This document shows positions 7,964 through 63,381 of a stretch of 64,000 nt of DNA, in pieces. A program made the translations under genes and the position numbers. Every line of letters starts with the position of its first letter. Within the stretch, counting starts at the first letter, position 1. Under the pieces are notes generated by a model. That model saw only the letters and a program-made list of their open reading frames with translations. It made no database searches and was not told where the DNA came from. Source of the DNA: Verrucomicrobiia bacterium (GTDB lineage Bacteria > Verrucomicrobiota > Verrucomicrobiia > Limisphaerales > CAIMTB01); contig JAHCBA010000001.1 in NCBI GenBank assembly GCA_019634625.1, positions 186,001-250,000 of the forward strand, written 5' to 3'.

Positions 7964-8120
7964 TGCATCCCCAAGTTGTCGGTACCGAGCCAGCGAACCG
8001 GAGGGACGAGCTCCGCGAGTCCTCAACCCAACGCTCCACACCGTTGCGGCCTCGTGGAACCCGGCCCTCCGAAGCGCCGCTTGGCGGAGTTCGCACCTCT
8101 ACCGACTACTCCGGGATGCA
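7964..8120 (+). repeat. 157-bp palindromic element, copy A
   Basis: This full-length copy begins TGCATCCC and ends GGGATGCA, with ~21-bp imperfect terminal inverted repeats and an inner CGGAGGG/CCCTCCG pair. Direct repeats CGCCTGAAC flank it at 7952-7960 and 8124-8132, with CGG between element and repeat on each side. The left repeat holds the stop codon of the NrfD gene. The orientation is taken as forward, and the copy at 63077 is nearly identical in reverse. Confidence 0.9.
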
Positions 8121-8157
8121 CGGCGCCTGAACGCCCCCATTCCCCATTCCCTACTCC

Positions 8158-8880
8158 CTACTCACCTTCCCCGTCCCTCCCCTCCGCCCACGCCTCCAAC
8201 TCAGGCCCGATGAGCGATGCCCACAGGGCATAGCCCGCATCGTTGACGTGCAAATCGTCGTCCAGAAATAACTCCCCGCGCGGCCGTCCCTCGTCGTCCA
8301 GCATCGGCGTGAACACATCGACGTACCCGAGGTGAGGCCGCTCCGCGCAATCCTCCCGGATCCGCTCGTTCAACACCCGTTGCGCCTCCAGCCACCGGAT
8401 CCGGCTCGGACTCGGCTTCACCGCGACAAAACGGATCGCCGTTCCCGGCATCGCCGCCTCGACCCGTTCCACGAACTGCCGCCAGCCCTCAAACACCGCG
8501 TCCACCGTCTTCCCCGCCGCCAGATCGTTGTCCCCCTCATACACGAAAATCAGCGCCGGCCGGTATCGCGTCACCACCCGGTCGAAGAAATGCAGCACAT
8601 CGCTCATCTGCGATCCCCCAAACCCGCGGTTGATTACCGGAAACCCCGGAAACGCCGTCTCCAGACCCCGCCACATCCGGAACGACGACGATCCCACAAA
8701 CAGCACCGGCCGCTCCGGCGGTGCCTCCCGAAGGTCTCTCGCCTCGAACGCGCGGATGTCTCCCTCGAACCGGTTCGTCCCCTGAGCACCCGCGCTTCCC
8801 CCAGCCAACGCCATCCCCACCGCCACGAACCCCACTGCCACCACCCTTCGAGCGAACAAAAACGGTATCGTCGGCCTCAT
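8158..8880 (-). CDS. secreted SGNH/GDSL-type hydrolase
   Basis: The 240-residue protein has a signal peptide (residues 1-32, ending around GSAGAQG). Family blocks are visible: block I VGSSSF at 62-67 with the nucleophile serine, a glycine block NRGFGGS at 84-90, block III EGDND at 115-119, and the C-terminal Asp-x-x-His region DDDLHVND at about 213-220. The family is esterases, lipases and acetyl-xylan or carbohydrate deacetylases acting outside the cytoplasm; the substrate cannot be told from sequence. It is divergent from the ACT-domain gene and one of three SGNH genes within 4.5 kb. Confidence 0.85.
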   Translation of the reverse strand: MRPTIPFLFARRVVAVGFVAVGMALAGGSAGAQGTNRFEGDIRAFEARDLREAPPERPVLFVGSSSFRMWRGLETAFPGFPVINRGFGGSQMSDVLHFFDRVVTRYRPALIFVYEGDNDLAAGKTVDAVFEGWRQFVERVEAAMPGTAIRFVAVKPSPSRIRWLEAQRVLNERIREDCAERPHLGYVDVFTPMLDDEGRPRGELFLDDDLHVNDAGYALWASLIGPELEAWAEGRDGEGE

Positions 8881-9004
8881 GCGGTCCGCACCCTATCGCC
8901 CCTCCCTCCCCCTGCCAATCGCCGCATCCCCGCCGCATCCCCGGTCGGCCCACCCTCCCCTCTTTTTCCGCGCCATTCTCCGCCCGCCACGTTACCAAAT
9001 CCCC

Positions 9005-9529
9005 ATGCGCGTCGCCCTCGTCCTCACCATCATCGGCCGCGACCGGCCCGGACTGGTGGAATCCCTCGCCTCCATGGTCACCCGGCACGACGGCAATTGG
9101 CTCGAATCCCGCATGAACCGGCTCGGCGGCGAGTTCGCCGGACTCCTCCGCTGCGACCTGCCCCCCGACCGCGAGGACGCCTTCCGCCAGGCCCTCGCCC
9201 AACTCGACGCCCTCACCGCCGTCGTCCGCCGCGACCAACCGGCCCCCGCCCCAACCGCCCCCCTCGCCACCCTCGACCTCGTGGGACACGACCGCCCCGG
9301 CATTGTGCGTCAACTGGCCGCCATCCTCGCCGCACAGGGCGTCAACGTCGAGGAACTCGCCACCGAATGCGTCTCCGCTCCCATGTCCGGCGAACCCCTC
9401 TTCAAGGCCCGCGCCCGCCTCGCACTCCCGCCCGGCCTCAACCTCGCCTCGCTCCGCACCGATCTCGAACGGGTCGCCGCCGATCTCCTCGTGGAAATCG
9501 CCATCAGCCCCGTTACCCCTCCCGCTTGA
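9005..9529 (+). CDS. tandem ACT-domain protein (GcvR-like)
   Basis: The protein has 174 residues with the start at ATG 9005 (MRVALVLTIIGRDRPGLVESL). An upstream in-frame ATG at 8879 would add a Pro-rich leader that is probably not translated. Two ACT domains are visible: residues 1-75 with GRDRPGLV, and 85-170 with GHDRPGIVRQLAAILAAQGVNVEEL. This pattern matches the glycine cleavage repressor GcvR and related amino-acid-sensing regulators. No glycine cleavage gene is in the window, so the regulated pathway is unknown. Confidence 0.85.
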   Translation: MRVALVLTIIGRDRPGLVESLASMVTRHDGNWLESRMNRLGGEFAGLLRCDLPPDREDAFRQALAQLDALTAVVRRDQPAPAPTAPLATLDLVGHDRPGIVRQLAAILAAQGVNVEELATECVSAPMSGEPLFKARARLALPPGLNLASLRTDLERVAADLLVEIAISPVTPPA

Positions 9530-9581
9530 ACACACCCCCATCGCCCGCTTCCCCACTCCGACTCCCCCGCGTCCGACAGTC

Positions 9582-11720
9582 ATGAGCCGGCACCGCCAAC
9601 CGCCCCGTTCCCCGCACCCCGGGAAACCCTCCCCCGGATCACCTCCGCCCACGGGATCTCGTCGGACCCGCCCCCTCTCCAACATCCGCAAAGCCCTCCT
9701 GGGCGGCGCCGTCACCCTGACCGCCTTTCTACTCCTCGAACTCCTTCTCTGGGCCTGCCGCGTCCAGCCCGCCTGGCGCACGGAAGACCCCTACGCCGGT
9801 TTCTCCCGCCACATTCCCCACTTCATCCGCGAACCCGGCCCGGACGGAGCGGCGCGCATCTCCGTCGCCCCCGCCAAGTCCGCCGTCCTCAACCCGCAAA
9901 CCTTCGCCGCCCGCAAACCCACGGGCACCTACCGCATCATCTGCCTCGGAGGTTCAACCACCTACGGCCGCCCCTTCTACGACGCCACCTCGTTCCCCGG
10001 TTGGCTGCGGGCGTTCCTTCCCGCCGCCGACCCCTCCCGTTCCTGGGAGGTCATCAACGCCGGCGCCATCAGCTACGCCAGTTACCGCGTCCTGGGCGTC
10101 ATGGAGGAACTCGCCCGCCACGAACCCGACCTCTTCATCCTTTACACCGGCCAGAATGAGTTTCTCGAACGGCGAACCTACGACGGCCTGGCCGCCGCCA
10201 CCTCGCCCCTCGCCGACGCCGCGTCCCTCGTCAATCGCACCCGCCTCGCCACCGTCATGCGTCAGGCCCTCGACGCCGCAGGCGTCGCCCGCAAATCCTC
10301 CGGCCACCGCGCCCCTGTCCTCGGTGAAAACACCCGCGCCATCCCCATCGATGCCGTCGGCCCCGCGGCCTACCATCGCGACGACGCCCTCGCCGCGGAT
10401 GTCCTCGAACATTATCGGGCCTCCCTCCGCCGCATGGTCGCCCTCGCCCGCTCCGTCGGCGCAGAAATCCTCTTCGTCGTGCCCGCCTCCAATCTCGCCG
10501 ACTTCGCCCCCTTCAAGAGCGAACACCGCCCCGGCCTTTCCGCCACCGAACTGACCGAATGGTACGCCCTCGAACGCGCCGGCCGTGCCGCCGCCGCCGC
10601 GGGTCGTTTCGACGACGCCGTCCGCGCCTTCGAATCCGCCATCCGCCTCGACGACCGCCACGCCGGCCTCTGGTTCCATCTCGGCAACGCCCTTCGCGCC
10701 CTCGGCCGCCATGGCGATGCCCGCACCGCCTTCCGTCGGGCCATCGACGAGGATATCTGCCCTCTCCGCATGCCCTCCCCCTTCACCCTAGCCGTCCGCG
10801 AAATCATCGCCGAAACCGGTGCCTGCGGCGTGGACTTCGAAGACTGGGTGGCCCGCGAAAGTCCCGATGGCCTCGCCGACCGCCGCTTCTTCCACGACCA
10901 CGTTCACCCCACCCTCGAAGGCAATCGCGGTCTCGCCCTCGCCCTCCTCGACTGCCTCGCCCAACGCGGCATCGTCCGCCCGTCCCCCGACTGGAACGAC
11001 GCCACCCTCGCCCGCGTCACCGCCAGCGTCGAGGCCTCCATCGACCGTCCCCTCCATGCCCTCCAACTCCGCATGCTGGCCGCCATGCTCGGCTGGCTCG
11101 GCCAACCCGACCAGGCCAGACACCAGGCCGAACTCGCCCTCGCCCTTGCCGGGCCGTCACCCGACGTTCTCCTGGACCAGGCCCAACGTTTCCAATCCGT
11201 TCGCGCCCACACCCTCGCCACCGAGTTCCTGGAACGTGCCGCGGCCGCCCATCCCGAAGCCGCCCCGGTCCGCTTCCAACTGGCCCTCGCCCTTCTCGCA
11301 TCGGGACGGGACGCCGATGCCCTGAACGACCTCCAGGACGTGGTCCGGCTCGATCCCAACCATGCCGAAGCCCACACCCGCCTCGGTGCCATCCTCGCCG
11401 CCCAGGAACGCTACGGCGACGCCGAGCGGCACTTCGCCGAAGTCGTCCGCCTCGCGCCCCACTCGGACGTCGCTCTCAACAACCTCGGCCTTGCCATGGC
11501 CCGGCAGGGCCGCTTCGAGGATGCCATCGTCGCCTATCGGCAGGCCCTCGCCGCCAATCCCCGCTCCGTCGCCGCCCATGTCCACTACGGACTCGCCCTG
11601 GAAGGTCTCGGCCAGACCCGCGACGCCATCGAACACTTTCGCACCGCCCTCCGCCTCGACCCGTCCCATTCCGAAGCCGCCACCCGCCTCAAGACCCTCC
11701 TCGCCGTCCCCGCCCCCTGA
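9582..11720 (+). CDS. SGNH-hydrolase-fold protein with TPR repeats
   Basis: The 712-residue protein starts at ATG 9582. One membrane anchor lies at about 38-60 after an Arg/Pro-rich cytoplasmic tail. The SGNH domain has GGSTTYG at about 122-128, GQNEF at about 190 and a C-terminal DHVHP at about 438. TPR units interrupt it at about 325-390 (ALERAGRAAAAAGRFDDAVRAFESAI) and fill the C-terminus (about 500-712). Such SGNH-TPR proteins are common in Planctomycetes and Verrucomicrobia; their substrate is unknown. It follows the ACT gene by 52 bp in the same direction. Confidence 0.85.
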   Translation: MSRHRQPPRSPHPGKPSPGSPPPTGSRRTRPLSNIRKALLGGAVTLTAFLLLELLLWACRVQPAWRTEDPYAGFSRHIPHFIREPGPDGAARISVAPAKSAVLNPQTFAARKPTGTYRIICLGGSTTYGRPFYDATSFPGWLRAFLPAADPSRSWEVINAGAISYASYRVLGVMEELARHEPDLFILYTGQNEFLERRTYDGLAAATSPLADAASLVNRTRLATVMRQALDAAGVARKSSGHRAPVLGENTRAIPIDAVGPAAYHRDDALAADVLEHYRASLRRMVALARSVGAEILFVVPASNLADFAPFKSEHRPGLSATELTEWYALERAGRAAAAAGRFDDAVRAFESAIRLDDRHAGLWFHLGNALRALGRHGDARTAFRRAIDEDICPLRMPSPFTLAVREIIAETGACGVDFEDWVARESPDGLADRRFFHDHVHPTLEGNRGLALALLDCLAQRGIVRPSPDWNDATLARVTASVEASIDRPLHALQLRMLAAMLGWLGQPDQARHQAELALALAGPSPDVLLDQAQRFQSVRAHTLATEFLERAAAAHPEAAPVRFQLALALLASGRDADALNDLQDVVRLDPNHAEAHTRLGAILAAQERYGDAERHFAEVVRLAPHSDVALNNLGLAMARQGRFEDAIVAYRQALAANPRSVAAHVHYGLALEGLGQTRDAIEHFRTALRLDPSHSEAATRLKTLLAVPAP

Positions 11721-11733
11721 CCCCGGTCCTTCC

Positions 11734-11796
11734 CCGAGTGGCGGATGAGAAGGCAGCAAGCCGGAGGGACGAACTCCGCGAGTCCACAACCCAACG
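11734..11796 (+). repeat. 157-bp palindromic element, partial copy
   Basis: This matches about the first 60 bases of the full element after its terminus: a diverged left arm, then GGCAGC, then CCGGAGGGACGAACTCCGCG, then AGTCC and CCCAACG. The right half is missing. It lies 14 bp after the stop of the SGNH-TPR gene, the usual position for this element. Confidence 0.7.
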
Positions 11797-11868
11797 AACC
11801 GCTCCCCTGCGCCCCACCCTCCGTCTTCCGCCTTCATCCCTCCCCCGACTCGCGCTACCCTCCCTTCC

Positions 11869-12564
11869 ATGCGTCGATTCGTTGTGGGAACGCGCCGATG
11901 GTGGACCCTCCTTCTTGCCCTGGGCTGGACCATGGGCTGCACCGTGCCTCCCAAGGCACCGCTGCCCGCCACCCACTTCACCGGGCTCACTCGCGTGGCC
12001 TGTGTCGGGGACAGCATCACCGCCGGCTCCGGCCTGGCCAACCCCGGGGAATCCGCCTATCCCGCCGTTCTTGCCGACCTCCTCGGTCCCACCTACCGCG
12101 TCCGGAACTTCGGCGTCAGCGGCGCCACTCTCCTCCGTGACGGCGACCTGTCCTACACCGGCACCGCCACGTTCCAGGAAGCCCTCGACTTCCGCCCGCA
12201 TGTCGTCGTCATCGCCCTCGGAACCAACGACTCCAAGCCTCAGAACTGGCTCCATGCCGACAGCTTCGAACGCGATCTCTACCGTCTGGTGCGCGCTTTC
12301 CAGTCCCTCCCCTCCCGCCCCGTGGTGTACCTGGCCACCCCGCCGCCCGTCTTCCGCGACCGCTGGGGTATCACCGCAGCGACCGTCCGCGACCGGATCG
12401 TCCCCACCCTCCGCCGCATCGCCGCCCGCGAAGGATGGTCGGTCATCGATTGGCACCTCCTCCTGAACGACGACCCCGCTGTCTTCCCCGACGGCATTCA
12501 TCCCGATGCCCTCGGGGCCGCCCGGATGGCCGGCCATGTCGAAACCGTCTTCCGCGGTCGCTGA
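11869..12564 (+). CDS. lipoprotein SGNH/GDSL hydrolase
   Basis: The 231-residue protein has a lipoprotein signal peptide; the lipobox LGWTMGC puts the lipidated Cys at 24. SGNH blocks: GDSITAGSG at 47-55 (nucleophile Ser49), SGATLL around 85, GTNDS at about 117, and DGIHPDALG near residue 207, giving the Asp-His pair. The arrangement is typical of GDSL esterases and thioesterase-I/lysophospholipase-like or sialate-esterase-like enzymes on the cell surface. It is the last native gene before the tRNA-Thr island. Confidence 0.88.
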   Translation: MRRFVVGTRRWWTLLLALGWTMGCTVPPKAPLPATHFTGLTRVACVGDSITAGSGLANPGESAYPAVLADLLGPTYRVRNFGVSGATLLRDGDLSYTGTATFQEALDFRPHVVVIALGTNDSKPQNWLHADSFERDLYRLVRAFQSLPSRPVVYLATPPPVFRDRWGITAATVRDRIVPTLRRIAAREGWSVIDWHLLLNDDPAVFPDGIHPDALGAARMAGHVETVFRGR

Positions 12565-12929
12565 ACCCCCGCCCTTCGCGGGCCCAGGCGGCGCTGTGGC
12601 GCCCGGTCTGACCGAGAACGAGACGTTTTGCCCCTGGAGCGGAGCACGATGTCGGCAGGCCACCGTCGCTGGCCGCTGCACTGGACCGCTACGCTGGACC
12701 GCTGCGCTGGGAAACGAGGCGCGAAACGAGAGCACCCCTGACCAGCCCTCTCGATGCCCCGCGCCGGTCCCGGGGTGGACCTGGGCGACGACCTGGGAAA
12801 TGGGGCCGCGACCTGAACACGCGGCTGGGCCATTCTATCGGGCCACTCCCGACCACTTTCCTTCGCCCGACGCAAGGGGCCCGCCAAAAGTGGCCCAAAA
12901 GTGGTCCAGCAGACTTTTCGGGAAGCCCT
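12565..12929. other. intergenic stretch bearing the relic end of an older related island
   Basis: No convincing gene is present. The last 49 bp (12881-12929) align without gaps to 25281-25329, the inner end of the neighbouring island, at about 30 of 49 positions. Both hold a pair of GTGG-type 12-bp repeats ahead of the att core. A short local repeat (CTGGACCGCT) lies near 12683-12705. The stretch therefore looks like the remnant of an earlier element integrated at the same tRNA. Confidence 0.5.
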
Positions 12930-13009
12930 TGAATCTTCGTAAGTCCTTGGTGCCGTTGGAGCCAGTTGTCGGATTTGAACCGACGCCCGTCCGATTACAA
13001 ATCGGGTGC
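12930..13009. repeat. attL: 80-bp direct repeat with 3' part of tRNA-Thr
   Basis: Positions 12957-13009 duplicate the 3' 53 bases of the tRNA-Thr gene (reverse orientation, including the CCA end), and 12930-12956 duplicate its downstream flank. The only difference from attR is C at 12986 against A at 25386. Identity ends at 13009, where the tRNA would continue into its anticodon-side 5' half, so this copy is not a functional tRNA. Confidence 0.92.
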
Positions 13010-13094
13010 AAGGCGTTTTTCCACGTCGTCCCATGTCGTGTGAAATCGCACAAATCCCTTGCAAAACAGGGGTTCAAGCGCGACAACACGCGAC

Positions 13095-14414
13095 ATGACG
13101 CAACCGCAACGGACGCCAAAAGTGGCTAAGCAAGTGGCTAAGCAAAACGAAGGCGGCAAGGTTTCGACTGGAATCCGGCGCTTCGAGTCCAAGGTCTTCA
13201 AGCCGGCGTGGACGAAGGGCGGCAGACGCTTCGAGCTTGAGCATTACGCCATCCGTCTCCGACACGACGGGAAGCGCGCCACGGTCAACCTGCAAACCGC
13301 CGACGCCCGGGAGGCGGCACGTCGGGCGGCGCGGTTCGCCACCATCTTGGCGGCAAGCGGATGGGAAGCGGCGCACGCCGACCTTTCACCCGAACAAGCC
13401 CGCGTCGTGGCGAAGCGCGACACGCCAACCGTCGGAGACTTGATTCGCGAAGCCGACCGCGTTGCCGTCCATGTCAAGGCGCCAACCCTTCGAGGTTACG
13501 GGAACTGCCTTCGACAACTGGCTACCCTCGTCGCCGGCATCGAGGGCGATGCCAGTCGGTTCAACTACCGCACCGGGGGAACCGAACGGTGGCGCGAGAC
13601 GGTTGACGCCATCCGCATCGGCACCCTGACGCCTCGCGCCGTCGAGGGCGCCACGGCCGCCTACGTGAAGTCTCGCGGGACGACGGACTCGGCGAAGCGG
13701 ACGATGGCGGCCGTTCTTCGCGGTGCCCGGGCGTTCTGGAGCCGACGCCTTCGCCGGTTGCTGCCCTTCGAGAACCTGCCCGACCCGTTCGAGGGCGTCG
13801 TTATCGAGTCGCCGCGCCCTCCCAGGTACGTCTCGACGGTGAACGCAACCGCCCTCGTCGAGGCGGCACGTTCCGAACTTCGCGACGGTGGCGACCCCGA
13901 GGCGTGGAAGGCGTTGCTCCTGGAGTTGGGCGCCGGGTTGCGGCGCGGAGAGGTTGACCAGTTGCTCTGGGCGAACGTGGACGCATCGCGCCGGGCAATC
14001 CGCGTCATCGCCGGCAAGTCGTGGGAGAGCGTCGCCGAGGTTCCCCTGGCGGACGGCATCGCATCGGAATTGGAACGGCTTCGCCCCGACGCGAAGGGGC
14101 TTTACGTGCTGGAGGGCGGACCAAGGCCCGGCCCGGACGAGAAGCGACGCCGCTACGGTGCACACCGAACATGGCGACGGCTGACCGATTGGCTTCGCCG
14201 CAACGGGGTCAACAGCCGAACGCCAAACCATTCGATGCGAAAGGAGTGCGGCGCGATCATCAACGCCACGGCCGGGCTTCACGCCGCATCGCGGTTCTTG
14301 CGCCACGCCGACGTTGCCGTGACCGCCAGCCATTACAGCGACGCCCGCAACCGCGTCGTGGTGCCGTTGTTCGACGACTCGACGCCCGGGAAGACTGGCG
14401 GGAACGCGTCTTGA
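13095..14414 (+). CDS. tyrosine recombinase (island integrase)
   Basis: The protein has 439 residues from ATG 13095; an in-frame ATG at 13059 is less likely. Catalytic residues are visible: Arg in GAGLRRGE (283/284), H379-x2-R382 in HSMRKECG, H404 in FLRHADVAV, and the nucleophile Y414 in SHYSD. A basic N-terminal arm-binding region (about 1-60) and a core-binding SAM-like region (about 110-215) precede the catalytic domain. The gene sits immediately inside attL, as is usual for tRNA-targeting elements. Two 12-bp arm-type repeats overlap its first codons, so integrase binding may repress its own expression. Confidence 0.95.
   Translation: MTQPQRTPKVAKQVAKQNEGGKVSTGIRRFESKVFKPAWTKGGRRFELEHYAIRLRHDGKRATVNLQTADAREAARRAARFATILAASGWEAAHADLSPEQARVVAKRDTPTVGDLIREADRVAVHVKAPTLRGYGNCLRQLATLVAGIEGDASRFNYRTGGTERWRETVDAIRIGTLTPRAVEGATAAYVKSRGTTDSAKRTMAAVLRGARAFWSRRLRRLLPFENLPDPFEGVVIESPRPPRYVSTVNATALVEAARSELRDGGDPEAWKALLLELGAGLRRGEVDQLLWANVDASRRAIRVIAGKSWESVAEVPLADGIASELERLRPDAKGLYVLEGGPRPGPDEKRRRYGAHRTWRRLTDWLRRNGVNSRTPNHSMRKECGAIINATAGLHAASRFLRHADVAVTASHYSDARNRVVVPLFDDSTPGKTGGNAS
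13122..13145. repeat. tandem 12-bp repeats near attL (candidate integrase arm sites)
   Basis: Two adjacent copies of GTGGCTAAGCAA occur at 13122-13133 and 13134-13145. The same unit with the same 12-bp spacing occurs next to attR at 25290-25312, with a further inverted copy at 25237-25246. Placement at both island ends fits integrase arm-type binding sites. Confidence 0.6.
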
Positions 14415-14955: not shown

Positions 14956-15083
14956 GGCCCAGCCTTCGATGGTCGAGGGCCAGCGGGTCAACCAAGGCGA
15001 AGGTCGCCAGCCTGATCCGGCGCGGTTGGTTCCCGGGGTGCAGGATTTGCGACCTTGGCAGGCGGAAGCGAGGCGGTCGGTGA
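14952..15083 (+). CDS. small basic protein (43 aa)
   Basis: This is a short ORF from ATG 14952 to TGA 15083, linked by four-base overlaps to both neighbours (ATGA with the Xis gene, GTGA with the primase gene). The product is basic, with CRICDLGRRKRGGR at the C-terminus; two cysteines three residues apart could bind metal. The double overlap argues that it is translated. No family is recognised; it may serve mainly to couple translation. Confidence 0.5.
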   Translation: MRPSLRWSRASGSTKAKVASLIRRGWFPGCRICDLGRRKRGGR

Positions 15084-16003
15084 GAACCGCCGAGTTCCTG
15101 GACCGCTTGGGGGGCGTCCGGAAGTCCGGGCCGTCGAGCTGGATGGCGCGTTGCCCGAGTCACAAGGACCGGAATCCGTCACTCGCCATCACGGAGACAG
15201 CGGACGGCAAAACGCTCCTACGATGCCACGCGGGCTGCACCGCCGAGGCCGTCGCGGGCGCCGTCGGGCTTCGCATGAGTGACTTGATGGGCCCGAGTGA
15301 GTCGCGCAACGGCGGCCACCAACCCAAGGCGCCGCGCCGCATCGTCGCGACCTATCCCTACCACGACGAGACCGGCGCACTTCTCTTCGAGGTCGTCCGG
15401 TTCGACCCGAAAGACTTCCGGCAACGGCGTCCCGACCCCTCGGCGACGGACGGTTGGGCGTGGTCGCTGAGTGGCGTCCGTCGCGTTCTCTTCCGGCTTC
15501 CCGAGATCCGAAGGGCAATCGAGTCCGGGACTCCGGTTGTGGTCTGCGAGGGCGAGAAAGACGCCTTGCGCCTCGTTGAAATGGGCTTTCAGGCGACCAC
15601 GGCACCGGCCGGCGCTGGCAAGTGGACGGATGCCTACTCGGACTCACTTGCTGGCGCGGATGTCTATGTCGTTCCGGACCGCGACGAGCCGGGTCGAAAG
15701 CACGCGGAGCAAGTCGCCAAGTCACTCGATGGCAAGGCCAATTCCGTTCGCGTCGTCGAGCTTCCGGCTGAGTGGAGCGGCGGGCCAGTCAAAGACGTTT
15801 CCGACCTGTTTGACGGCGGGGCAACGGCTGGTGATTTCTTGGCTTTGTGTGAGTCGGCGAGTGAGTGGGCGAAGCTGCGTGAGGGAAGGAAGAAAAGTCA
15901 TGGCGGCAACAGGCGGAGTGAGGATGCCAGTTCAAAGGGCAATAGTTGCCCCATGGTAACTATTCAGGTCGGTGGTGCGCAGGGGAGGACTTTGCCGGGG
16001 TGA
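15080..16003 (+). CDS. CHC2/TOPRIM primase, C-terminus cut by IS66 insertion
   Basis: Starts at GTG 15080 (GTGA overlap), giving 307 residues. Zinc-finger-like motif: C25PSH28 with C49/H50/C53. TOPRIM domain: E158 in VVVCEGEKDA and D200/D202 in VVPDRDEPG. The last native codon before the IS is at 15953-15955; the final 16 residues are encoded by the IS left end. Removing the IS and one target duplication joins this frame directly to the AAA+ ATPase frame at 18618. The two were therefore probably one fused primase-ATPase of about 848 residues that replicates the island. Confidence 0.85.
   Translation: MRTAEFLDRLGGVRKSGPSSWMARCPSHKDRNPSLAITETADGKTLLRCHAGCTAEAVAGAVGLRMSDLMGPSESRNGGHQPKAPRRIVATYPYHDETGALLFEVVRFDPKDFRQRRPDPSATDGWAWSLSGVRRVLFRLPEIRRAIESGTPVVVCEGEKDALRLVEMGFQATTAPAGAGKWTDAYSDSLAGADVYVVPDRDEPGRKHAEQVAKSLDGKANSVRVVELPAEWSGGPVKDVSDLFDGGATAGDFLALCESASEWAKLREGRKKSHGGNRRSEDASSKGNSCPMVTIQVGGAQGRTLPG
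15948..15955. repeat. 8-bp target site duplication, left copy
   Basis: GCCCCATG precedes the IS left inverted repeat; the identical 8 bp follows the right inverted repeat at 18613-18620. Eight-base duplications are the rule for IS66-family elements. Confidence 0.95.
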
Positions 16004-16134
16004 AGGGCTTCGGCGGACCGCGATGAGGGGAGCGATCGGCGAGGGTGGTGCGAGGGAGGGGAAGGAAAGTTGCGATCCAGACTGGACTCTTGCTTCAGCC
16101 TCGGGCAGGGTCACTACCCGTGGAGCACGAGACC

Positions 16135-16998
16135 ATGGTGATGCAGGGCAGGGAACTGGGAGCGGCCGAGCTGACGCAGATCCGCTCACTCATCGCAACC
16201 CGGCCGGATTGGAGTCGCTACCGGTTGTCGCGGGAGTTGTGCCTCCTTTGGAACTGGCGGACCGCCACCGGCCAGATGAAGGACATGGCGGCGCGTACGC
16301 TGCTCTTGAAACTGGAGGAGCGGGGCCTGGTGCAACTGCCCCCACGTCGATGGGCCTCGCCCAATCGGATGCGGCGCAAGCGGCTAGTGCCCTCGGCTCA
16401 CGCCCGGGAACCGGTGGTCGGCGCGCTCGCCGAGTTGCAGCCGCTGGAAGTGGTGGAACTGAGTCGGGCCCCCGCCGAACTGGCGCTCTTCGAGACCTTG
16501 CTCCACACGCATCACTACCTGAGTTACACCAGTCCGGTGGGGATGAACCTGAAGTATCTGGTGCGCGATCGCCATGGACGACCGGTGGCCTGCTCCCTGT
16601 TCGGGTCCGCAGCGTGGCGCTGTGCCGCCCGGGACGGGTTCATCGGCTGGTCGGAGGCGACGCGCGCGCGCCACTTGCAGCGGATCACCAACAACACGCG
16701 CTTCCTGGTCATGCCCTGGGTTGAGGTCCGCCATCTGGCCGGCCATGTCCTGGGCCGGATCGAGCGGCGGCTGCGCGCCGACTGGAGGCGCAAGTATGCC
16801 GAACCGTTGAGTCTGGTGGAGACCTTCGTCGATACGAGTCGCTTTGCCGGGGTCTGTTACCGGGCGGCCAACTGGATTGCGGTGGGTGAGACCACCGGAC
16901 GGACCCGTCAGGACCGCTTCAGCCGCATCGAGGTTCCCCGCAAGACGGTGCTGGTGCGTCCGTTGGTGGCGAACTTCCGGGAGGAACTGGCGGCATGA
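16135..16998 (+). CDS. DUF4338 (DruA-like) protein carried by the IS66 element
   Basis: About 287 residues from ATG 16135; ATG 16141 is also possible. The domain pattern HHYLSYTSPVGMNLKYLVRDRHGRPVACSLFGSAAW, then NNTRFLVMPWVEVRHLAGHVLG, and the C-terminal DTSRFAGVCYRAANW, identifies DUF4338. This family is also the DruA component of Druantia defence systems, but many members sit beside transposases, as here. It overlaps the transposase start by four bases (ATGA). A role in transposition or target choice is likely but unproven. Confidence 0.85.
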   Translation: MVMQGRELGAAELTQIRSLIATRPDWSRYRLSRELCLLWNWRTATGQMKDMAARTLLLKLEERGLVQLPPRRWASPNRMRRKRLVPSAHAREPVVGALAELQPLEVVELSRAPAELALFETLLHTHHYLSYTSPVGMNLKYLVRDRHGRPVACSLFGSAAWRCAARDGFIGWSEATRARHLQRITNNTRFLVMPWVEVRHLAGHVLGRIERRLRADWRRKYAEPLSLVETFVDTSRFAGVCYRAANWIAVGETTGRTRQDRFSRIEVPRKTVLVRPLVANFREELAA

Positions 16999-18425
16999 GC
17001 CGGCGCGACGAACTGCTGGCATTGGCGCGGGCGAACCCCGAGGGCATCGTCGATTACGTGCTCACGCTGGAAGAGCGGATCCGCCAACTGGAAGCGCGCG
17101 TCGTCGAGTTGGAAGCGCGTCTGGCTCAGAACAGCGGCAACAGCGGCCGGCCACCCTCCAGCGACGGCCTCGCCAAGCCGCCTCCACGCAGCTTGCGTGG
17201 CAAATCGGCGCGCAAACCCGGTGGCCAACCCGGTCACCCCGGTCGCACCCTTCAGGCGGTCGCCAAGCCCGACCGGGTCCAGGTTCACCCGCTCACCCAG
17301 TGTCATTGTGGCCAATGCGGCGGCGTATCTCTGCTCGGCCAGCCGGTGCTGGATCACGAGCGCCGCCAGGTGTTCGATCTTCCGGTGCTCCAACTCTCGG
17401 TGACCGAGCACCAGGTCGAGATCAAGTGCTGTCCGGTCTCGGGCCGGAAAGTCAGCGCTGCCTTTCCGGCGGGAGTCCTGGCCCCGGTGCAGTACGGCCC
17501 CAACTTCCGTGGGCTGGCGCTCTATCTGTTCAACCAACAACTCCTTCCCTACGACCGGTTGCGGCAAACCTGTCTCGATCTCTTTGGACAGCCCTTGAGC
17601 CTGGGCACCCTCGGTTCGATCAACGAAAGCGCCTACGATGTCCTTGCCCCGGTGGAGAGCGCCATCATCCGTGGCCTCATCCGGGCTGAGGTGGTGCATG
17701 TGGACGAAAGCGGGTTGCGCGTTGCCGGAAGCCTCCACTGGCTGCATGTCGCCTGCACACCCGAACTGACTCACTACGGCGTTCATGCCAATCGCGGGAC
17801 CGAAGCGATGGATGCGCTGGGGGTGCTGCCCCTCTGCCGACTATGGCTGGTGCACGACCACTGGAAGCCCTATTTCAAGTACGACGCCCTGCACGCGCTC
17901 TGCAACCAGCACCTCCTGCGGGAACTCAAGTTTGTGGCCGAGCAGATGAATGAAGCCTGGGCCTCGGAACTGAGCGCGTTCCTGATCGGTTGGAAGAACG
18001 ACCCGCTCACTGCCCTGGGACTCGATGAGGACCAGTTCAACCGGGCCCATGCCCACTACCGCGCAATCCTCCGTCGGGGTCGGCGCCTTCATCCCCGCCG
18101 CCGGTCCGGGCAGGGTCGGACCAAGCAGGACAAGGCGACCAATCTGCTTGACCGCCTGGAGGACTACGATCTGTCGGTGCTGGCCTACCTGATCGATCCC
18201 AAGGTCCCCTTCACCAACAACCAGGGCGAGCAGGACATTCGCATGATCAAGGTGAAGCAGAAAATCAGCGGCTGCTTCCGGACCTTGCGCGGGGCGAACC
18301 TCTTCGCGCGCATTCGCAGCTACCTCTCCACCTGCCGCAAGCAGGGACACAATCTCTGGGACGCCTGCCGGCGCCTGGCGCTCGGACAACCCTTCATGCC
18401 CGAGGTTCCGGCCGCCGGCCCCTGA
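16995..18425 (+). CDS. IS66-type transposase
   Basis: 476 residues. N-terminal coiled coil (about 18-45, LEERIRQLEARVVELEARL), then the linker QNSGNSGRPPSSDG typical of IS66 TnpC, a zinc-binding segment around CHCGQCGG, and a DDE core. The core shows HVDESGLRV (first Asp), WLVHDHWKPYF (second Asp) and FTNNQGEQDIRMIKVKQKISG (Glu region). Length and motifs suggest an intact enzyme. It overlaps the DUF4338 gene and is read in the same direction. Confidence 0.95.
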   Translation: MSRRDELLALARANPEGIVDYVLTLEERIRQLEARVVELEARLAQNSGNSGRPPSSDGLAKPPPRSLRGKSARKPGGQPGHPGRTLQAVAKPDRVQVHPLTQCHCGQCGGVSLLGQPVLDHERRQVFDLPVLQLSVTEHQVEIKCCPVSGRKVSAAFPAGVLAPVQYGPNFRGLALYLFNQQLLPYDRLRQTCLDLFGQPLSLGTLGSINESAYDVLAPVESAIIRGLIRAEVVHVDESGLRVAGSLHWLHVACTPELTHYGVHANRGTEAMDALGVLPLCRLWLVHDHWKPYFKYDALHALCNQHLLRELKFVAEQMNEAWASELSAFLIGWKNDPLTALGLDEDQFNRAHAHYRAILRRGRRLHPRRRSGQGRTKQDKATNLLDRLEDYDLSVLAYLIDPKVPFTNNQGEQDIRMIKVKQKISGCFRTLRGANLFARIRSYLSTCRKQGHNLWDACRRLALGQPFMPEVPAAGP

Positions 18426-18617
18426 CCGGGCAACCTCGTAGCGGCGCGGACGAGCCCGCGACCGAAGCCCTCCTGCTCCGATTTCCCGACTTGCCGGGAC
18501 CCTCTACCGCGGAAAGCCGCAACAGTAGCGATCCTCCCCGCTCATCCGTCCTGGCCAGTGCCGTCACTTGCACCGCTCCCGGGCCCCCCCATTTGGGGAC
18601 CTGAACAGTTACGCCCC

Positions 18618-22798: not shown

Positions 22799-22838
22799 GT
22801 TGGCTAAGTCACTCTGCCGCTAAAGTCCGGACACATTC

Positions 22839-25431: not shown

Positions 25432-25532
25432 CCGGCCCGGAGAGGCACTCTTCCCCTTGGGTTCCCCGCCCCAGTAAGCGCCCCCTCCCCATCTTCGGTC
25501 AAGTCAGCCCTGATCCCCCAGGAAGCAAACCG

Positions 25533-25689
25533 TGCATCCCGGAGTGGTGGGGAGAGGTGCGAACTTCGCGAAGCGTCACTTCGGAGGACCGGGCTCCACA
25601 AGCCCGCAACGGTGTGGCGCGTTGGGTTGTGGACTCGCGGAGCTCGTCCCTCCGATTCGCTGCCTCCTCACCCACAACGCCGGAAGGCA
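25533..25689 (-). repeat. 157-bp palindromic element, copy B
   Basis: Full-length in reverse orientation, TGCATCCC to a degenerate GGAAGGCA. It is more diverged than other copies and has no clear flanking duplication. It lies between tRNA-Thr and the 3' end of the radical SAM gene. Confidence 0.85.
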
Positions 25690-25694
25690 CCGCC

Positions 25695-33185: not shown

Positions 33186-33228
33186 CACCCCCCGGAGGGA
33201 CGAGCTCCGCGAGTCCTCAACCCATCGC
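33186..33228 (+). repeat. 157-bp palindromic element, partial copy
   Basis: Only the inner block remains: CCCGGAGGGACGAGCTCCGC, then GAGTCCTCAACCC. Both termini are lost. It lies 68 bp after the pheT stop, again at the 3' end of a gene. Confidence 0.65.
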
Positions 33229-33320
33229 CCCACCGTCATGCCCGCCGCGCATAGCCGGCGCGTCCTCCCCCTTCCACTCACCCAAGTTGTCCCCTGGAGG
33301 GACGCCCCCCCCCGGCATCC

Positions 33321-36338: not shown

Positions 36339-36342
36339 TTCC

Positions 36343-37548
36343 ATGGCCGACCAACTCGCCTACGTCATCCTCACTCCCTACACCCTCCAGAAATCCCGCA
36401 CCGGCGGGATTTTTGCCAGATTGATCACCCGCACCGGGCTCGAACTCGTGGCCGCCCGCATGTTCGCCCCCAGCCAGACCCTCATCGACGAATACGCCGC
36501 CCACATCGTCTCCGCCGAGGATCCCCAGGACCGCCGCATCCAGGAATGGATCCGCGACTACGTCGCCCGGAACCTCGCCCCCAATCCCGCCACCGGACGC
36601 CGCCGTCGCGTCATGGTCCTCCTCTTCCGCGGCGAAGACGCCGTCCGAAAGGTCCGGTCCGTGGTCGGCAACTTCACCCAGACCCCCCGCAGCGGCGAAA
36701 CCATCCGCGATTCCTTTGGCGACCTGATCCTCGACGAACACGGCCAGGCCCGGTACTTCGAACCCGCCGTCCTCGCCGCCCCCAACGGCGAGGAAGCCGC
36801 CTCCAAACTCCAGATCTGGGCCCGCTACGCCGCCCGGGACGGCGGCCTCCTCGAAGACGTCGCCTTCCACGACGCCCCCGGCCCCATCGAACGCACCCTC
36901 GTCCTCATCAAGCCCGACAACTTTCGCTTCCCCTCCGGCCGCCCCGGAAACGTCATCGACTTCTTCTCCCGCACCGGCCTCGCCATCGTCGCCATCAAGG
37001 TCCACCGCATGAGCGTCGCCGATGCCGTCGAGTTCTACGGGCCCGTCCGTGACATCCTTCGCACCCGCCTCAACGAGTCCGTCGGCCATCGTGCCGCCGC
37101 CGCCCTCGAAAAGGAATTCGGCTTCCGCCCCGGCCCGGACGTCGCCGCCCGCCTCGGCGAACTCCTCGGCCCCGCCTTCGGAGACCATCGGTTCGAGGAG
37201 ATCGTGCAGTTCATGTCCGGCCTCGCCCCCAGTCAGTGCCCGCCCGGGCGCCTGCACGAACCGGGCACCGAGAAATGCATCGCCATCGTTTACGAAGGCC
37301 CCGAGGCCATCCGCAAAATCCGCGATGTCCTCGGACCCACCGACCCCTCCCAGGCTCCCCCCGGTTCCATCCGCCGCGAATTCGGCTCGACCATTATGGT
37401 CAATGCAGCCCACGCCAGCGACTCCGCCGAAAATGCCCGGCGCGAAATGGCCATCATCAAACTCGGCCAGGAAAACATCTTCCAGAAAACCGTCGAGGAC
37501 TTCTACGCCGGATGCGGATCGGGCGGCGCATCCCGGAATGGGGGTTGA
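36343..37548 (+). CDS. tandem nucleoside-diphosphate-kinase-domain protein
   Basis: 401 residues with two NDK-like domains. Domain 1 (about 1-165, AYVILTPYTLQKSRTGGIFARL) lacks the NxxH(G/A)SD phosphohistidine motif and is probably inactive. Domain 2 (about 185-385, TLVLIKPDNF) keeps VNAAHASDS with the phospho-accepting His. NDK transfers the gamma phosphate between nucleoside triphosphates. The last seven codons and stop lie inside a repeat element (37527-37684), so the native C-terminus has been replaced. Confidence 0.85.
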   Translation: MADQLAYVILTPYTLQKSRTGGIFARLITRTGLELVAARMFAPSQTLIDEYAAHIVSAEDPQDRRIQEWIRDYVARNLAPNPATGRRRRVMVLLFRGEDAVRKVRSVVGNFTQTPRSGETIRDSFGDLILDEHGQARYFEPAVLAAPNGEEAASKLQIWARYAARDGGLLEDVAFHDAPGPIERTLVLIKPDNFRFPSGRPGNVIDFFSRTGLAIVAIKVHRMSVADAVEFYGPVRDILRTRLNESVGHRAAAALEKEFGFRPGPDVAARLGELLGPAFGDHRFEEIVQFMSGLAPSQCPPGRLHEPGTEKCIAIVYEGPEAIRKIRDVLGPTDPSQAPPGSIRREFGSTIMVNAAHASDSAENARREMAIIKLGQENIFQKTVEDFYAGCGSGGASRNGG

Positions 37549-37684
37549 GGAGGCTGCAAATCGCGAAGGGACGAGCCCTGCGAGTCCTCAACCCAGCGCT
37601 CCACACCGTTGCGGCCTCGTGGAACTCGGCCCTCCGTAGCGACGCTGCGCGACGCTCGCACCTCTCACCACAACTCCGGGATCC
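37527..37684 (+). repeat. 157-bp palindromic element, copy C, overlapping an NDK-like gene
   Basis: Forward copy with degenerate termini (CGCATCCC; GGGATCCC). It overlaps the last 22 bases of the NDK-like reading frame and provides its stop codon. Flanking duplication is not visible, so it is probably an old insertion. Confidence 0.85.
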
Positions 37685-37775: not shown

Positions 37776-37852
37776 GCGAGCGTAGCTCAGCCTGGTAGAG
37801 CGTCACCTTGCCAAGGTGAATGTCGAGGGTTCGAATCCCTTCGCTCGCTCCA
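37776..37852 (+). tRNA. tRNA-Gly(GCC)
   Basis: Acceptor GCGAGCG pairs with CGCTCGC, the D arm is AGCTCAGCCTGGTAGAGC, the anticodon loop TTGCCAA gives GCC, the T arm is GAGGGTTCGAATCCCTT, and CCA is encoded. All stems close. Confidence 0.96.
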
Positions 37853-53883: not shown

Positions 53884-53948
53884 CGCTCTTGCCTAGGTCC
53901 CGCAACCGCGATTGTCAGTCCCAAACCGGCCCAACCCTCCCCTCACCG

Positions 53949-54105
53949 TGCATCCCGGAGTTGCGGGTCGAGGCACGAAGTTCGCGAAGCGTTGCCTCGG
54001 AGGGCCGAGTTCCACGAGGCCGCAACGGTGTGAAGCGTTGGGTCGAGGACTCGCGGAGCTCGTCCCTCCGATTCGCTGCCTCCTCACCCACAACTCCGGC
54101 ATGCA
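53949..54105 (-). repeat. 157-bp palindromic element, copy D
   Basis: Full-length reverse copy. Flanking direct repeats CTCCCCTCACC at 53937-53947 and 54109-54119, with G on the left and CCG on the right between element and repeat. It occupies most of the 423-bp gap between the DUF2868 gene start and the sensor kinase. The remainder of that gap holds no gene. Confidence 0.92.
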
Positions 54106-54306
54106 CCGCTCCCCTCACCCCCCCGCCCAGGGACGGGATCGCTGCGGCAACGCGCCCCTCTTGGCGGAGACATTTTCCGATCCGGAATCCTTCGAAGGCA
54201 CCCCCTGCATGGCCAGCCGCTGGGAGGCCCCCGGCCACAGCCGTCACCGCGCCGATTGTGGCCTTCGGGCACGTGTGCTACCGTCGAATCGCATCAGGAG
54301 AGCTCC

Positions 54307-57021: not shown

Positions 57022-57157
57022 GAACCGGGTTCCTTCGCATTCCCGGCCAGGCTTTGATCGGGCCCCCGGGAACGACCTTCCAGCACGAGGCGGGTGGACA
57101 ACCTGCGGCTTCAGGGTCATGCGCCATGCGCGCGCGGGGCGGGCCTCCGCCGCCCCT

Positions 57158-58066: not shown

Positions 58067-58169
58067 GCCCCAACCCACCCCGCAAGGCCAGCGCGGAAAC
58101 CACACCCTGTGGATGTTGCCATCCTTCCAGCCTTGGTCGTCCGCCGCTCTCCCGTTACCTTTCCCCGGC

Positions 58170-58952
58170 ATGTCGTCCTCGGGGCTCACCATCGCCGGCC
58201 GCACCTTCCGCTCCCGCCTCATCGTCGGCACCGGCAAGTTCGCCTCGCCTGAAGCCATGCGCGACGCCCTGCTGGCCAGCGGTGCCGAAATGGTGACCGT
58301 CGCCCTTCGCCGCGCCGATCTCTCCGGGGAACGCGACCCCTTCGCGAACATCCTCGAATTCATCGATCCCGCCCGATTCCTTCTCCTCCCCAACACCAGC
58401 GGTGCCATGAACGCCGAGGAAGCCGTCCGCCTCGCCCGCCTCGCCTGCGCCGCCGGCCTCCCCAACTGGGTCAAACTCGAAATCCATCCCGATCCCCGCT
58501 ACCTCCTCCCCGACCCCATCGAGACCCTCAAGGCCGCCGAACGCCTCGTGAAGGAGGGCTTCGTCGTCCTCCCCTACATCAACGCCGATCCCGTCCTCGC
58601 CAAACGCCTCCAGGAAGCCGGCACCGCCACCGTCATGCCCCTCGGCTCCCCGATCGGCTCCAATCGCGGCCTCCTCACCCGCGACCAGATCCGCATCATC
58701 ATCGAACAGGCCACCGTCCCTGTCGTCGTCGATGCCGGCCTCGGCGCCCCCAGCCATGCCGCCGAGGCCATGGAACTCGGCGCCGACGCCGTCCTCGTCA
58801 ATACCGCCATTGCCGTCGCCGCCGACCCCAACGCCATGGCCCGCGCCTTCGCGCTTGGCGTCGAGGCCGGTCGTCTCGCCTACCAGGCCGGCCTCGCCGA
58901 TCCTCTCAACCATGCCGATCCCACCAGCCCCCTCACCGCCTTCCTCGGCTGA
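58170..58952 (+). CDS. thiG: thiazole synthase
   Basis: 260 residues from ATG 58170. Begins [20 protein letters not shown]; catalytic region NWVKLEI with the Schiff-base Lys; phosphate-binding [12 protein letters not shown] and [30 protein letters not shown]. It forms the thiazole phosphate of thiamine from deoxyxylulose phosphate, dehydroglycine and ThiS thiocarboxylate. No thiS, thiF or thiH is in the window. Divergent from the pseudopilin gene. Confidence 0.95.
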
Positions 58953-59092
58953 GAGCCTGTCTGATTCCCTACCGCAGGACTGCTCCCCAACCGGTGCACC
59001 TCGGAAAGGCACCCCACGGCCCTTGGGTCCTGACTCGTCCCTCGACATCCAACGCCGCCCCGGGCTTACATGGGGGCCCCGAATCGGGTCGG

Positions 59093-60922
<1,830 letters not shown>

Positions 60923-61098
60923 GAGGCGCTCTTGGGAGGCGGTCTTGGAGCCTGTCTGAAAACTGGAAGGGGCCCTGCCAGGCGGGATCATGGCCTGGGG
61001 ATCTTGGCCTGGAACAAGGAGGCGGGGCCGGCGCATCCCCGCAGCGGGCCGGACCCCGGGCGAACCGCCCAAACCCATTCCGCTACACCGCCATTCCG

Positions 61099-61491
<393 letters not shown>

Positions 61492-61536
61492 TCATCCCCG
61501 CGCAAGCTCCCCATCAAGCCCCCCCTCACCCCGCGG

Positions 61537-61693
61537 TGCATCCCCAAATTGTCGGTGAGGAGGCAGCCAATCGGAGGGACGAGCTCCGCGAGTCCTCATC
61601 CCAACGCACCAAATCGTTGCGGCCTCGTGGAACCCGGCCCTCCGAGGCGATGCTTCGCGAAGTTCCCGCCTCCACCCACAACTTCGGGATGCA
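61537..61693 (+). repeat. 157-bp palindromic element, copy E
   Basis: Full-length forward copy. Flanking direct repeats CTCACCCCGCG at 61525-61535 and 61697-61707, separated from the element by G on the left and CGG on the right. The right repeat covers the stop codon of the Gfo/Idh/MocA gene, so insertion duplicated the gene's end. Confidence 0.92.
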
Positions 61694-61697
61694 CGGC

Positions 61698-62996
61698 TCA
61701 CCCCGCGATGGCCCGCTCCAGCGTCCACGGCTCCCGGTAGCCCAGGTCTTTCCAGGCATCGTCCCCGGTCCCCCCGACAAACCGCTCGGCCGACGGATCC
61801 CACTTCAACCTCAGCCCGGTCCAGTACGCCAGGTTGACCAGATGACACACACTGACCGTCCGGGCCCCGACCTCGACATCGCAGATCGGGCGCTTCCGCG
61901 TCCGCATGCAGGTCAGCCAGTCCCCGATGTGGTCGTTGCTCTCGTAAAGCTGAACCGCATGGCTCGTCAGCGGGATCTCCACCAGGGATTCCGGGTTCGA
62001 TTGGAACTGCCCCCGGTTCACCCGGATCCGCCCCCCGCTCCCATGAAACGTCACCCCGTTCCCAGATACATGCCGGACCACCGTCCCGTTCGCGTACCGA
62101 TAGCTCACCCCGCTCTGCGCATCGGGCCGGTCCGCCGGCAGCACCTCGACCGGACCGCTCTCGTCCATGCCCATCGCCCATTGCGCGATGTCGAAATGGT
62201 GCGCCCCCCAGTCGGTCACCATCCCGCCCCCGTACTCCCGGTAGTTCCGCCAGTTCGGGAAATGCCTATGCACCCCCCGCGGACTCAACTCCGAATGATA
62301 CGGACGCCACCGGGCCGGCCCCAGCCAAAGATCCCAATTCAAACCCGGCTGGGCCGCCTCCTCCGGCAGATCGCACCACCGTCCCGGCCCGCCAACCCCC
62401 ACCTCGATCTCCTCCACCTTCCCGATCGCCCCGTTGCGCACCAACTGGCACGCCCTCCGGAATTCCCGCGATGACCGCTGCATGCTCCCCACCTGCAGCA
62501 CCCGCTCATGACGCCGGACCGCCCTCACCAGTTCCCGTGCCTCGCGGATCGACTGCGTCAGCGGCTTCTCGCAGTAGATGTCCTTCCCGGCCTTCGCCGC
62601 GGCGATTCCGATCCACGCGTGCCAGTGGTCCGGCGTCGCAATCACCACCCCGTCCAGCCCGGGTCGCGCCAGCAACTCCCGGAAATCCTCCGCCGCATGG
62701 CACCCCCCCCGCCCGCTTCCCCCAGCCTCCTTCGCGTAATGGTCATCCACCATGCGTCGCGCGTTCTCCCGGCGGTCGCCATCCACATCGCAGACCCCGA
62801 CCACCCGCACGTTGCCCCGCCGCAGGCAATTCCCCAGCAGCCCGCGCCCCTGCGTCCCCATCCCGATGAATCCAAGCTCGATCCGGTCGTTGGGCGACAC
62901 CTCGGCACCCCAGACCCCCGATCGCAACACCGCCGGAGCGGCCAGAATCATCGCGGAACAACGCAGAAAGGAACGACGGGCAAGGCGGTGTGACAT
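61698..62996 (-). CDS. Gfo/Idh/MocA-family oxidoreductase, exported
   Basis: 432 residues from ATG 62996. Twin-arginine-like signal RLARRSFLRCSAMILAAPAV (5-24). NAD-binding part: LGFIGMGTQGRGLL; EKP motif in DIYCEKPLTQSI; C-terminal sugar-binding part with GGGMVTDWGAHHFDIAQWAMG. Such secreted dehydrogenases are very numerous in Planctomycetes and Verrucomicrobia and act on sugars or inositols. Substrate unknown. The element copies on both sides make this a repeat-bracketed gene. Confidence 0.92.
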   Translation of the reverse strand: MSHRLARRSFLRCSAMILAAPAVLRSGVWGAEVSPNDRIELGFIGMGTQGRGLLGNCLRRGNVRVVGVCDVDGDRRENARRMVDDHYAKEAGGSGRGGCHAAEDFRELLARPGLDGVVIATPDHWHAWIGIAAAKAGKDIYCEKPLTQSIREARELVRAVRRHERVLQVGSMQRSSREFRRACQLVRNGAIGKVEEIEVGVGGPGRWCDLPEEAAQPGLNWDLWLGPARWRPYHSELSPRGVHRHFPNWRNYREYGGGMVTDWGAHHFDIAQWAMGMDESGPVEVLPADRPDAQSGVSYRYANGTVVRHVSGNGVTFHGSGGRIRVNRGQFQSNPESLVEIPLTSHAVQLYESNDHIGDWLTCMRTRKRPICDVEVGARTVSVCHLVNLAYWTGLRLKWDPSAERFVGGTGDDAWKDLGYREPWTLERAIAG

Positions 62997-63076
62997 GGCG
63001 TGGAACGGTTTCCGGCGAATCTCCCAAAACCCGTGCCGGCGGACAATCCCAACCTGCCGCACCGCCCGTCAGCCAG

Positions 63077-63233
63077 TGCATCCCGGAGTTGTCGGTAGAG
63101 GTGCAGACTTCGCGAAGCGTCGCTTCGGAGGGCCGAGTTCCACGAGGCCGCAACGGTGTGGAGCGTTGGGTTGAGGACTCCCAGAGCTCGTCCCTCCGAT
63201 TCGCTGGCTCGGTACCGACAACTTGGGGATGCA
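63077..63233 (-). repeat. 157-bp palindromic element, copy F
   Basis: Full-length reverse copy with the best-preserved termini. Flanked by CCGCCCGTCAGCCAG (63062-63076) and CCGCCCGTCAGCAG (63234-63247), a duplication with a single-base indel. Its inner sequence is close to copy A at 7964. Confidence 0.93.
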
Positions 63234-63381
63234 CCGCCCGTCAGCAGATTCCCGCTGCATCTCCGTCGCACCCCCTGCCGCGCAGCCAGGAACCCCACAG
63301 TCCCCTCCCTCGCCGGGCTTTACACCGTCGGCTCGCGCACCATGCTCACACGGTCTCCTCCATCCAAGCGCCGGTTCCCTC

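Follow-up and report, generated by a model that had tools for sequence, protein, structure and literature searches.

A 163-bp miniature inverted-repeat element, very probably of an ISKra4-like, DruA-carrying insertion sequence, with an apparent strong bias toward positions upstream of promoter-like sequences in a Verrucomicrobiia bacterium

Six copies of a short sequence with inverted ends are scattered over a stretch of 64,000 nucleotides from a Verrucomicrobiia bacterium (assembly GCA_019634625.1, contig JAHCBA010000001.1, positions 186,001 to 250,000; this whole stretch is referred to as the window), and they raise the question of what kind of element this is, what moves it and where it inserts. 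We argue, from comparison of sequences, that it is very probably a miniature inverted-repeat transposable element (MITE) of an ISKra4-like insertion sequence (IS) which carries a DruA gene, and that it strongly favors positions upstream of promoter-like sequences.

When the copy first placed at 7964 (at 7961 after correction of its ends) was used as BLASTN query, we recovered all six full-length and two partial copies which a sequence-only reading of the window had listed; five of them are well preserved, while the copy at 37527 was found to be degenerate with eroded ends and is not full length. Ends and flanks were examined in copies from 71 sources, namely the window, 30 loci of the same genome with their flanks (L001-L030) and 40 further places (L100-L139); L001 and L021 are window copies, and places present twice were counted once. 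The core from GTGCATCCC to GGGATGCAC (GTGCAT..ATGCAC) was exactly 159 bp long in 56 of the 76 raw end pairings. All duplication and promoter statistics use 56 copies with a core of 157-161 bp and at most 3 mismatches over both ends, the other 20 pairings being dropped by length or end mismatches, several of them as a true end spuriously paired with a weak one; they were drawn from top-scoring BLAST matches and from first-listed contigs and are no random sample. With CR and YG outside the core, their consensus is 163 bp long (CRGTGCATCCC...GGGATGCACYG) and is bounded by terminal inverted repeats (TIRs) of about 20-24 bp, the first base being C in 50 and the last base G in 51 of the 56. The equal length noticed earlier was thus borne out, although the 157-158 bp given for it fell short by 2-3 bp on each side. 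Its description as a palindrome holds for the terminal ~24 bp and for the nested CGGAGGG/CCCTCCG pair but not throughout, as consensus and reverse complement agree at 72 of 163 positions.

The flanks of these copies showed a clear target duplication. Pairs of 9-bp flanks were identical in 25 of the 56 copies and at least 8/9 identical in 38, against a mean of 0.68 and a maximum of 4 copies reaching at least 8/9 in 1000 shuffles of the flanks. Identity was observed in 42-49 of the 56 copies at each of the nine positions and in at most 23 immediately outside them, and therefore the target duplication is exactly 9 bp. Perfect 9-bp duplications flank four of the five well-preserved window copies (Table 1), while no recognisable one was noticed in the flanks of the 25530 copy; the four duplicated flanks seen before are real, but of the lengths of 9-15 bp assigned to them those above 9 bp are chance extensions. 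Genome wide, TIR ends at no more than 1 mismatch were found 449 times (232 + 217) and a reversed-pattern control gave 0. With two ends per element, no fewer than 225 elements must carry them, and if every counted end belongs to a MITE these make up ~0.54% of the 6.74-Mb assembly. Identity of the copies to the consensus ranged from 83 to 97.5% with a median of 92%, which suggests that the burst was not very recent.

When base frequencies were profiled along the 112 outward flanks, a single strong peak was seen, T, T and G at positions 28-30. A TTGACA-like hexamer (at least 4/6 matches, on either side) begins at offset 28 in 24 of the 56 copies and, at 5/6 or better, in 11; at the remaining offsets (1-139, with 26-30 excluded) the means were 2.8 and 0.39 and the maxima 8 and 2, and in 5000 draws of random offsets the count never rose above 11. 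The match is sharply placed, with 24 copies at offset 28, 7 at 27 and 1 at 29, so that 27 bp separate the MITE end, and 18 bp the duplication, from the hexamer. At offset 28 it was seen 10 times at the left end, 15 times at the right end and once at both. In the window, three of the five well-preserved copies carry it (25530, 53946 and 63074), while the degenerate 37527 copy has no -35 at 28 bp and, by eye, TTGAAC at ~18 and ~33 bp when 37688 is taken as its end. Among 39 flanks picked by the hexamer alone, T at 46 (0.49), A at 52 (0.44) and T at 56 (0.38) stood out, of which the A and the second T are consistent with a -10 element separated from the hexamer by a 17-bp spacer; in the 30 flanks with a -35 match at 27-29, the mean match to TATAAT was likewise highest at this spacer (1.63) among spacers of 10-30. 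Many MITEs, whichever their orientation, thus seem to be placed upstream of sigma70-type promoters, and the hexamers may well belong to working promoters.

The same association could also be one of survival, insertions elsewhere having been lost and those at a harmless distance upstream having remained. Purifying selection does remove gene-disrupting copies, and when interrupted genes were sought for a clean empty site, none was convincing by eye in 8 joined-flank frames, both of which agree with such a filter. However, almost the whole signal falls on a single base offset, whereas a range of distances should be tolerable if selection alone were at work, and fixed offsets are published for related transposases (PMC3942029); we consider survival alone a rather improbable explanation. 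We favor instead a target preference which would be the transposase's own.

The candidate for this transposase came from the search for a full transposon with the same terminal repeats, which the sequence-only reading had proposed and which succeeded both in the same genome and in relatives. The TIR search found MITE ends in 30 of 293 genomes of the order. In G120, a genome of the same genus, two ends 2.19 kb apart, forming a perfect 22-bp inverted repeat (IR), enclose two genes, both with open frames. The first matches Pfam DruA (PF14236, DUF4338) with E 4e-23 (E 4.2e-25 is also recorded for the IS companion gene), and the second, downstream of DruA, has ISKra4 transposase as its best NCBIfam match (E 7.5e-45, 153.8 bits). 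A protein search with the G120 transposase then detected an IS in the own genome (G000:C21), 2189 bp long from TGCATCC to GGATGCA, whose ends, TGCATCCCCAAGTTGTCGG and TGCATCCCGGAGTTGTCGG, are the two end variants of the MITE; the copy at 63074 (first placed at 63077) is identical to them over 20/20 bp at one end and 19/19 at the other. Inside these ends the likeness is soon lost: end similarity extends over no more than 31 bp at 87% (in the copy first placed at 61537), followed by short chance-level matches only. With constant short TIR ends, a duplication of fixed length and ends in common with an element of autonomous type, and being at 163 bp too short for a transposase gene, the repeat is a MITE without a transposase of its own. 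In G200, two ends with one mismatch each likewise enclose a DruA match and an open transposase frame of full length, and the IS of G192 is flanked by a perfect 9-bp duplication (gtccgcagc) but carries one TGA. Furthermore, the TIR and a close transposase (E<=1e-100, found in 9 of 286 genomes searched) were found to occur together: the exact TIR pattern is present in 8 of these 9 genomes against 22 of 284 other genomes, and in 1 of 14 with only a distant transposase (Fisher p 4e-8), while the ninth genome, G200, has the TIR with one mismatch. Two of the nine supplied the TIR pattern and the query, and without them the count is 6 of 7.

That some other transposase of the genome (DDE_Tnp_1, or the ISKra4-like ones at C35 or C27) mobilises the MITE, the likeness to C21 being convergence, seems to us very improbable. 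The genome does have further transposases and the C21 copy is interrupted by a stop, but the C35 and C27 loci have no end at better than 4 mismatches, whereas the C21 IS matches both end variants, and the co-occurrence of TIR and close transposase across genomes likewise points to the C21 type. As a separate candidate, DDE_Tnp_1 (PF01609) was tried and rejected: at its four genome loci, with 1.5-kb flanks, none showed the 11-bp ends at up to 1 mismatch.

A repetitive extragenic palindrome (REP or REPIN) spread by a REP-associated tyrosine transposase (RAYT; Y1, IS200-like), or a structural RNA or regulatory repeat kept by selection, is hardly credible, for although one copy folds into a hairpin (z = -5.9) and ends occur in hundreds, Y1 transposases are not known to leave a target duplication, an absence which defines REPIN/RAYT systems, and the exact 9-bp duplications largely refute this reading. 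The fixed 163-bp length and the ends in common with a DDE-transposase IS also speak against it, and Rfam at gathering score found two tRNAs only in the window, all MITE copies of the window lying below the gathering score of every family. The earlier preference for transposition over an accreted REP is supported by the fixed length, the fixed ends, the exact duplication and the hundreds of genomic ends.

According to the reading that we prefer, the 163-bp MITE is non-autonomous and would be moved by the transposase of the 2.19-kb IS with the same ends. This enzyme, of the Mutator-type DDE class, would recognise the ~20-bp terminal repeats (5' C-R-GTGCATCCC...), make a 9-bp staggered cut and prefer a fixed distance upstream of sigma70/sigmaA-type promoters, such that the -35 begins 28 bp outward; the MITE would insert in either orientation because its two ends are nearly alike, and DruA may have a role in the reaction. 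A number of observations weigh against this reading. The only close partner IS found in the assembly has an interrupted transposase (one premature TGA, with 87.8 bits to the ISKra4 model up to the stop), which leaves the present source of the enzyme unproven. The G120 transposase lies under the NF033572 ISKra4 cut-off (153.8 versus 205 bits), and we therefore call it ISKra4-like and do not file it as a family member. Of the six two-ended partner elements, the own-genome copy included, only that of G192 shows a clear 9-bp duplication by eye, and two of the six are shortened to ~1.5 kb. As for the promoters, 32 of the 56 copies have no -35 match of at least 4/6 at offset 28, TATAAT reaches 4/6 at the 17-bp spacer in none of the 30 flanks with a -35 match at 27-29, and offset 28 was spotted in the profile before being tested, so that the independent check is the -10 signal, which is weak. 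Finally, in the orthologous region of G013, of the same genus, the genes were found and no MITE match, the intergenic DNA being too diverged for base-level alignment.

If the MITE does sit at a fixed distance from promoter-like sequences, it would provide a natural promoter map in a poorly studied lineage, and many near-identical MITEs upstream of promoters would be a possible source of common regulation. The earlier statement that no named family matches needs refining, since Mutator-type elements near ISKra4 are indicated by the ends, by the length of the duplication and by the preference for promoters. In PMC3942029, prokaryotic Mutator-type elements are described with IRs of 18-39 bp with a terminal C and duplications of 8-9 bp; here we found a 22-bp IR (G120), a terminal C and 9-bp duplication (MITE) and a 9-bp duplication (G192 IS). 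The ISKra4 group (p-MULT 4, Mutator-type), which gives the best NCBIfam match of the partner transposase, resembles the MITE and its IS in terminal C, IR length, 9-bp duplication and apparent insertion upstream of sigmaA-type promoters on either side (PMC3942029). That source also reports a lower promoter signal for p-MULT 4, 13 ISKra4-group ISs with near-identical IRs and promoters on both sides, and four ISKra4 elements that carry genes of unknown function. The present IS differs from this group in a transposase below the family cut-off and in its DruA companion. TnGBS and related ISs are stated there to insert 15-17 bases upstream of the -35; unlike this published distance, the -35 begins 28 bp from the MITE end, about one helical turn farther out. 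TnGBS and ISLre2 (p-MULT 3) share the insertion at a fixed distance upstream of promoters, but theirs is oriented, has a spacing of ~16 bp and belongs to another transposase clade. The word 'MITE' occurs 0 times in PMC3942029. Like other bacterial MITEs, the present one is short, TIR-bounded and target-duplicating, with ends that match an IS which it far outnumbers; unlike them, its interior is unrelated to the IS found and it keeps a fixed offset from promoter-like sequences.

Table 1. Copies of the MITE in the window, their duplications and neighbouring features
Feature	Position	Strand	Basis or remark
MITE copy, full 163 bp	7961..8123	+	BLASTN, end analysis
9-bp duplication CGCCTGAAC	7952..7960 left, 8124..8132 right		flanks of 7961 copy
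Partial MITE copy, query positions 25-88	11751..11814	+	BLASTN
tRNA gene	start 25431	-	25530 copy points toward it
-35-like TTGACC	25497..25502	-	28 bp outward of end of 25530 copy
MITE copy, full length	25530..25692	-	BLASTN, end analysis; no recognisable duplication
Partial MITE copy, query positions 35-76	33192..33233	+	BLASTN
Degenerate MITE copy, eroded ends	37527..37684	+	BLASTN
tRNA gene	37776-37849	+	right of 37527 copy
-35-like CTGACA	53913..53918	-	28 bp outward of end of 53946 copy
MITE copy, full 163 bp	53946..54108	-	BLASTN, end analysis
9-bp duplication CTCCCCTCA	53937..53945 left, 54109..54117 right		flanks of 53946 copy
MITE copy, full 163 bp	61534..61696	+	BLASTN, end analysis
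9-bp duplication CTCACCCCG	61525..61533 left, 61697..61705 right		flanks of 61534 copy
-35-like TTGTCC	63041..63046	-	28 bp outward of end of 63074 copy
MITE copy, full 163 bp	63074..63236	-	BLASTN, end analysis, comparison with partner IS ends
9-bp duplication CCCGTCAGC	63065..63073 left, 63237..63245 right		flanks of 63074 copy

Some further loci resemble the MITE or its partner in part. A second pair of DruA and ISKra4-like genes is present in the genome (L066, G000:C35), and within this locus every candidate for a TGCATCCC-type end has at least 4 mismatches. The loci fetched from G273 and G259 gave no match to the G120 DruA or transposase and, by eye, a relic of the transposase C-terminus beside one end. 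Elsewhere in the order, some short elements (L046, L047, L062, L063 and L064) share the TIR type but differ in the adjoining sequence; they are perhaps independent MITE families of related ISs.

The partner IS links DruA, a protein named after anti-phage defence, to transposition, and DruA proved to accompany transposases repeatedly, in several IS families. Within the window itself, an IS66-family element is complete at 15956-18612: it has the TIRs GTAACTATTCAGGTC/GTAACTGTTCAGGTC, is flanked by a perfect 8-bp duplication (GCCCCATG) and includes a DruA gene (16045-16998) in overlap with the transposase gene (16995-18425; IS66, E 6.6e-81). Of 116 genomes of the order, 41 have PF14236, 37 of them over its cut-off, and the single contig of G072 has at least 18 DruA matches (18 of 68 candidates scored). 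At the level of the order we scanned 20 chosen neighbours or fusions, and not all DruA matches: of the ten downstream neighbours, eight matched IS66 transposases (six over the curated cut-off), one was a pilin and one gave no match, and all ten long DruA open reading frames (ORFs) matched transposase domains, six of IS4/IS50 type and four of ISAs1 type, some below the Pfam cut-off. These one-frame DruA-transposase fusions are at L187, L183, L192, L179, L180 and L181, and at L193, L162, L170 and L172. Eighty further loci from named genomes (L195-L274) were chosen, among the matches listed, by likeness to the IS-borne DruA; 7 lacked room for a neighbour, and among the other 73 the neighbours matched IS66 at 62, ISKra4 at 4 and ISL3, IS4 and IS21 at 1 each. 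Among the matches listed, a DruA gene immediately precedes an IS66 transposase gene in Verrucomicrobiota, Acidobacteria, Firmicutes, Proteobacteria, a Bathyarchaeum metagenome-assembled genome and others, and its nearest relatives span many phyla, Verrucomicrobiota being prominent. Two records of a plasmid collection hold a relative of the window DruA, annotated as an ISAs1 transposase in one and as 'DUF4338 domain-containing protein' in the other. The IS companion and the DruA of Druantia belong alike to Pfam DruA, but here the gene sits inside an IS beside the transposase, and the PADLOC DruA model matched one of four DruA-type proteins (the ISAs1-type fusion L193, E 9e-5) and not the window DruA. 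DruA-like proteins have been published from Synechococcus phages, while no description of DruA inside IS elements was found in the literature searched, which was largely without subscription papers and preprints. The recurrent link suggests a biochemical role for DruA which can be tested, and a possible origin of the defence gene.

What this role may be was approached through a predicted structure of the window DruA (44 sequences, pLDDT 84.1, pTM 0.64), which has N-terminal helices and a C-terminal domain whose Foldseek matches are GNATs. Invariant residues of the window DruA include H157, D197, R219 and E259. DUF4338 is called a GNAT domain in PMC10853773. In VIA-align the top chain was phage Mu Mom (8bv8_A, Z 14.7, 4.1 A over 170 residues, 16% identity), followed by NatF (Z 13.3). 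At the sequence level, the DruA profile gave no meaningful match, and no Mom, among PDB sequences, and Pfam Mom matched one fusion (L193) weakly (E 0.007, below cut-off). The predicted fold is thus closest to that of Mom, though a common fold shows no function. Mom enzymes acylate adenine (PMC7824862), and from the predicted fold we infer only that DruA might modify DNA. One could speculate further, and we consider this rather unlikely as it stands, that DruA is primarily a transposon module and not a defence protein, namely a GNAT enzyme, similar to Mom, that accompanies transposases of several unrelated IS families or is fused to them (ISKra4-like, IS66, IS4/IS50, ISAs1 and single ISL3 and IS21 cases), that this enzyme may mark or protect DNA by base acylation and so license transposition or evade restriction, that it was recruited by Druantia, and that its ISKra4-like carrier spawned the promoter-seeding MITE described here. 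If this were true, the MITE would have placed near-identical inverted repeats upstream of a great many promoters.

Two regions of the window deserve mention apart from the MITE. A segment of ~216 bp (60881-61097) is missing from the orthologous stretch of G013, and part of it (~60944-61050) recurs elsewhere in relatives. The IS66 element overlaps the end of a Toprim/primase-like frame (14969-16003), a phage-integrase family gene (13059-14411) lies near this Toprim gene, and an integrated element around 13-20 kb of the window is possible.

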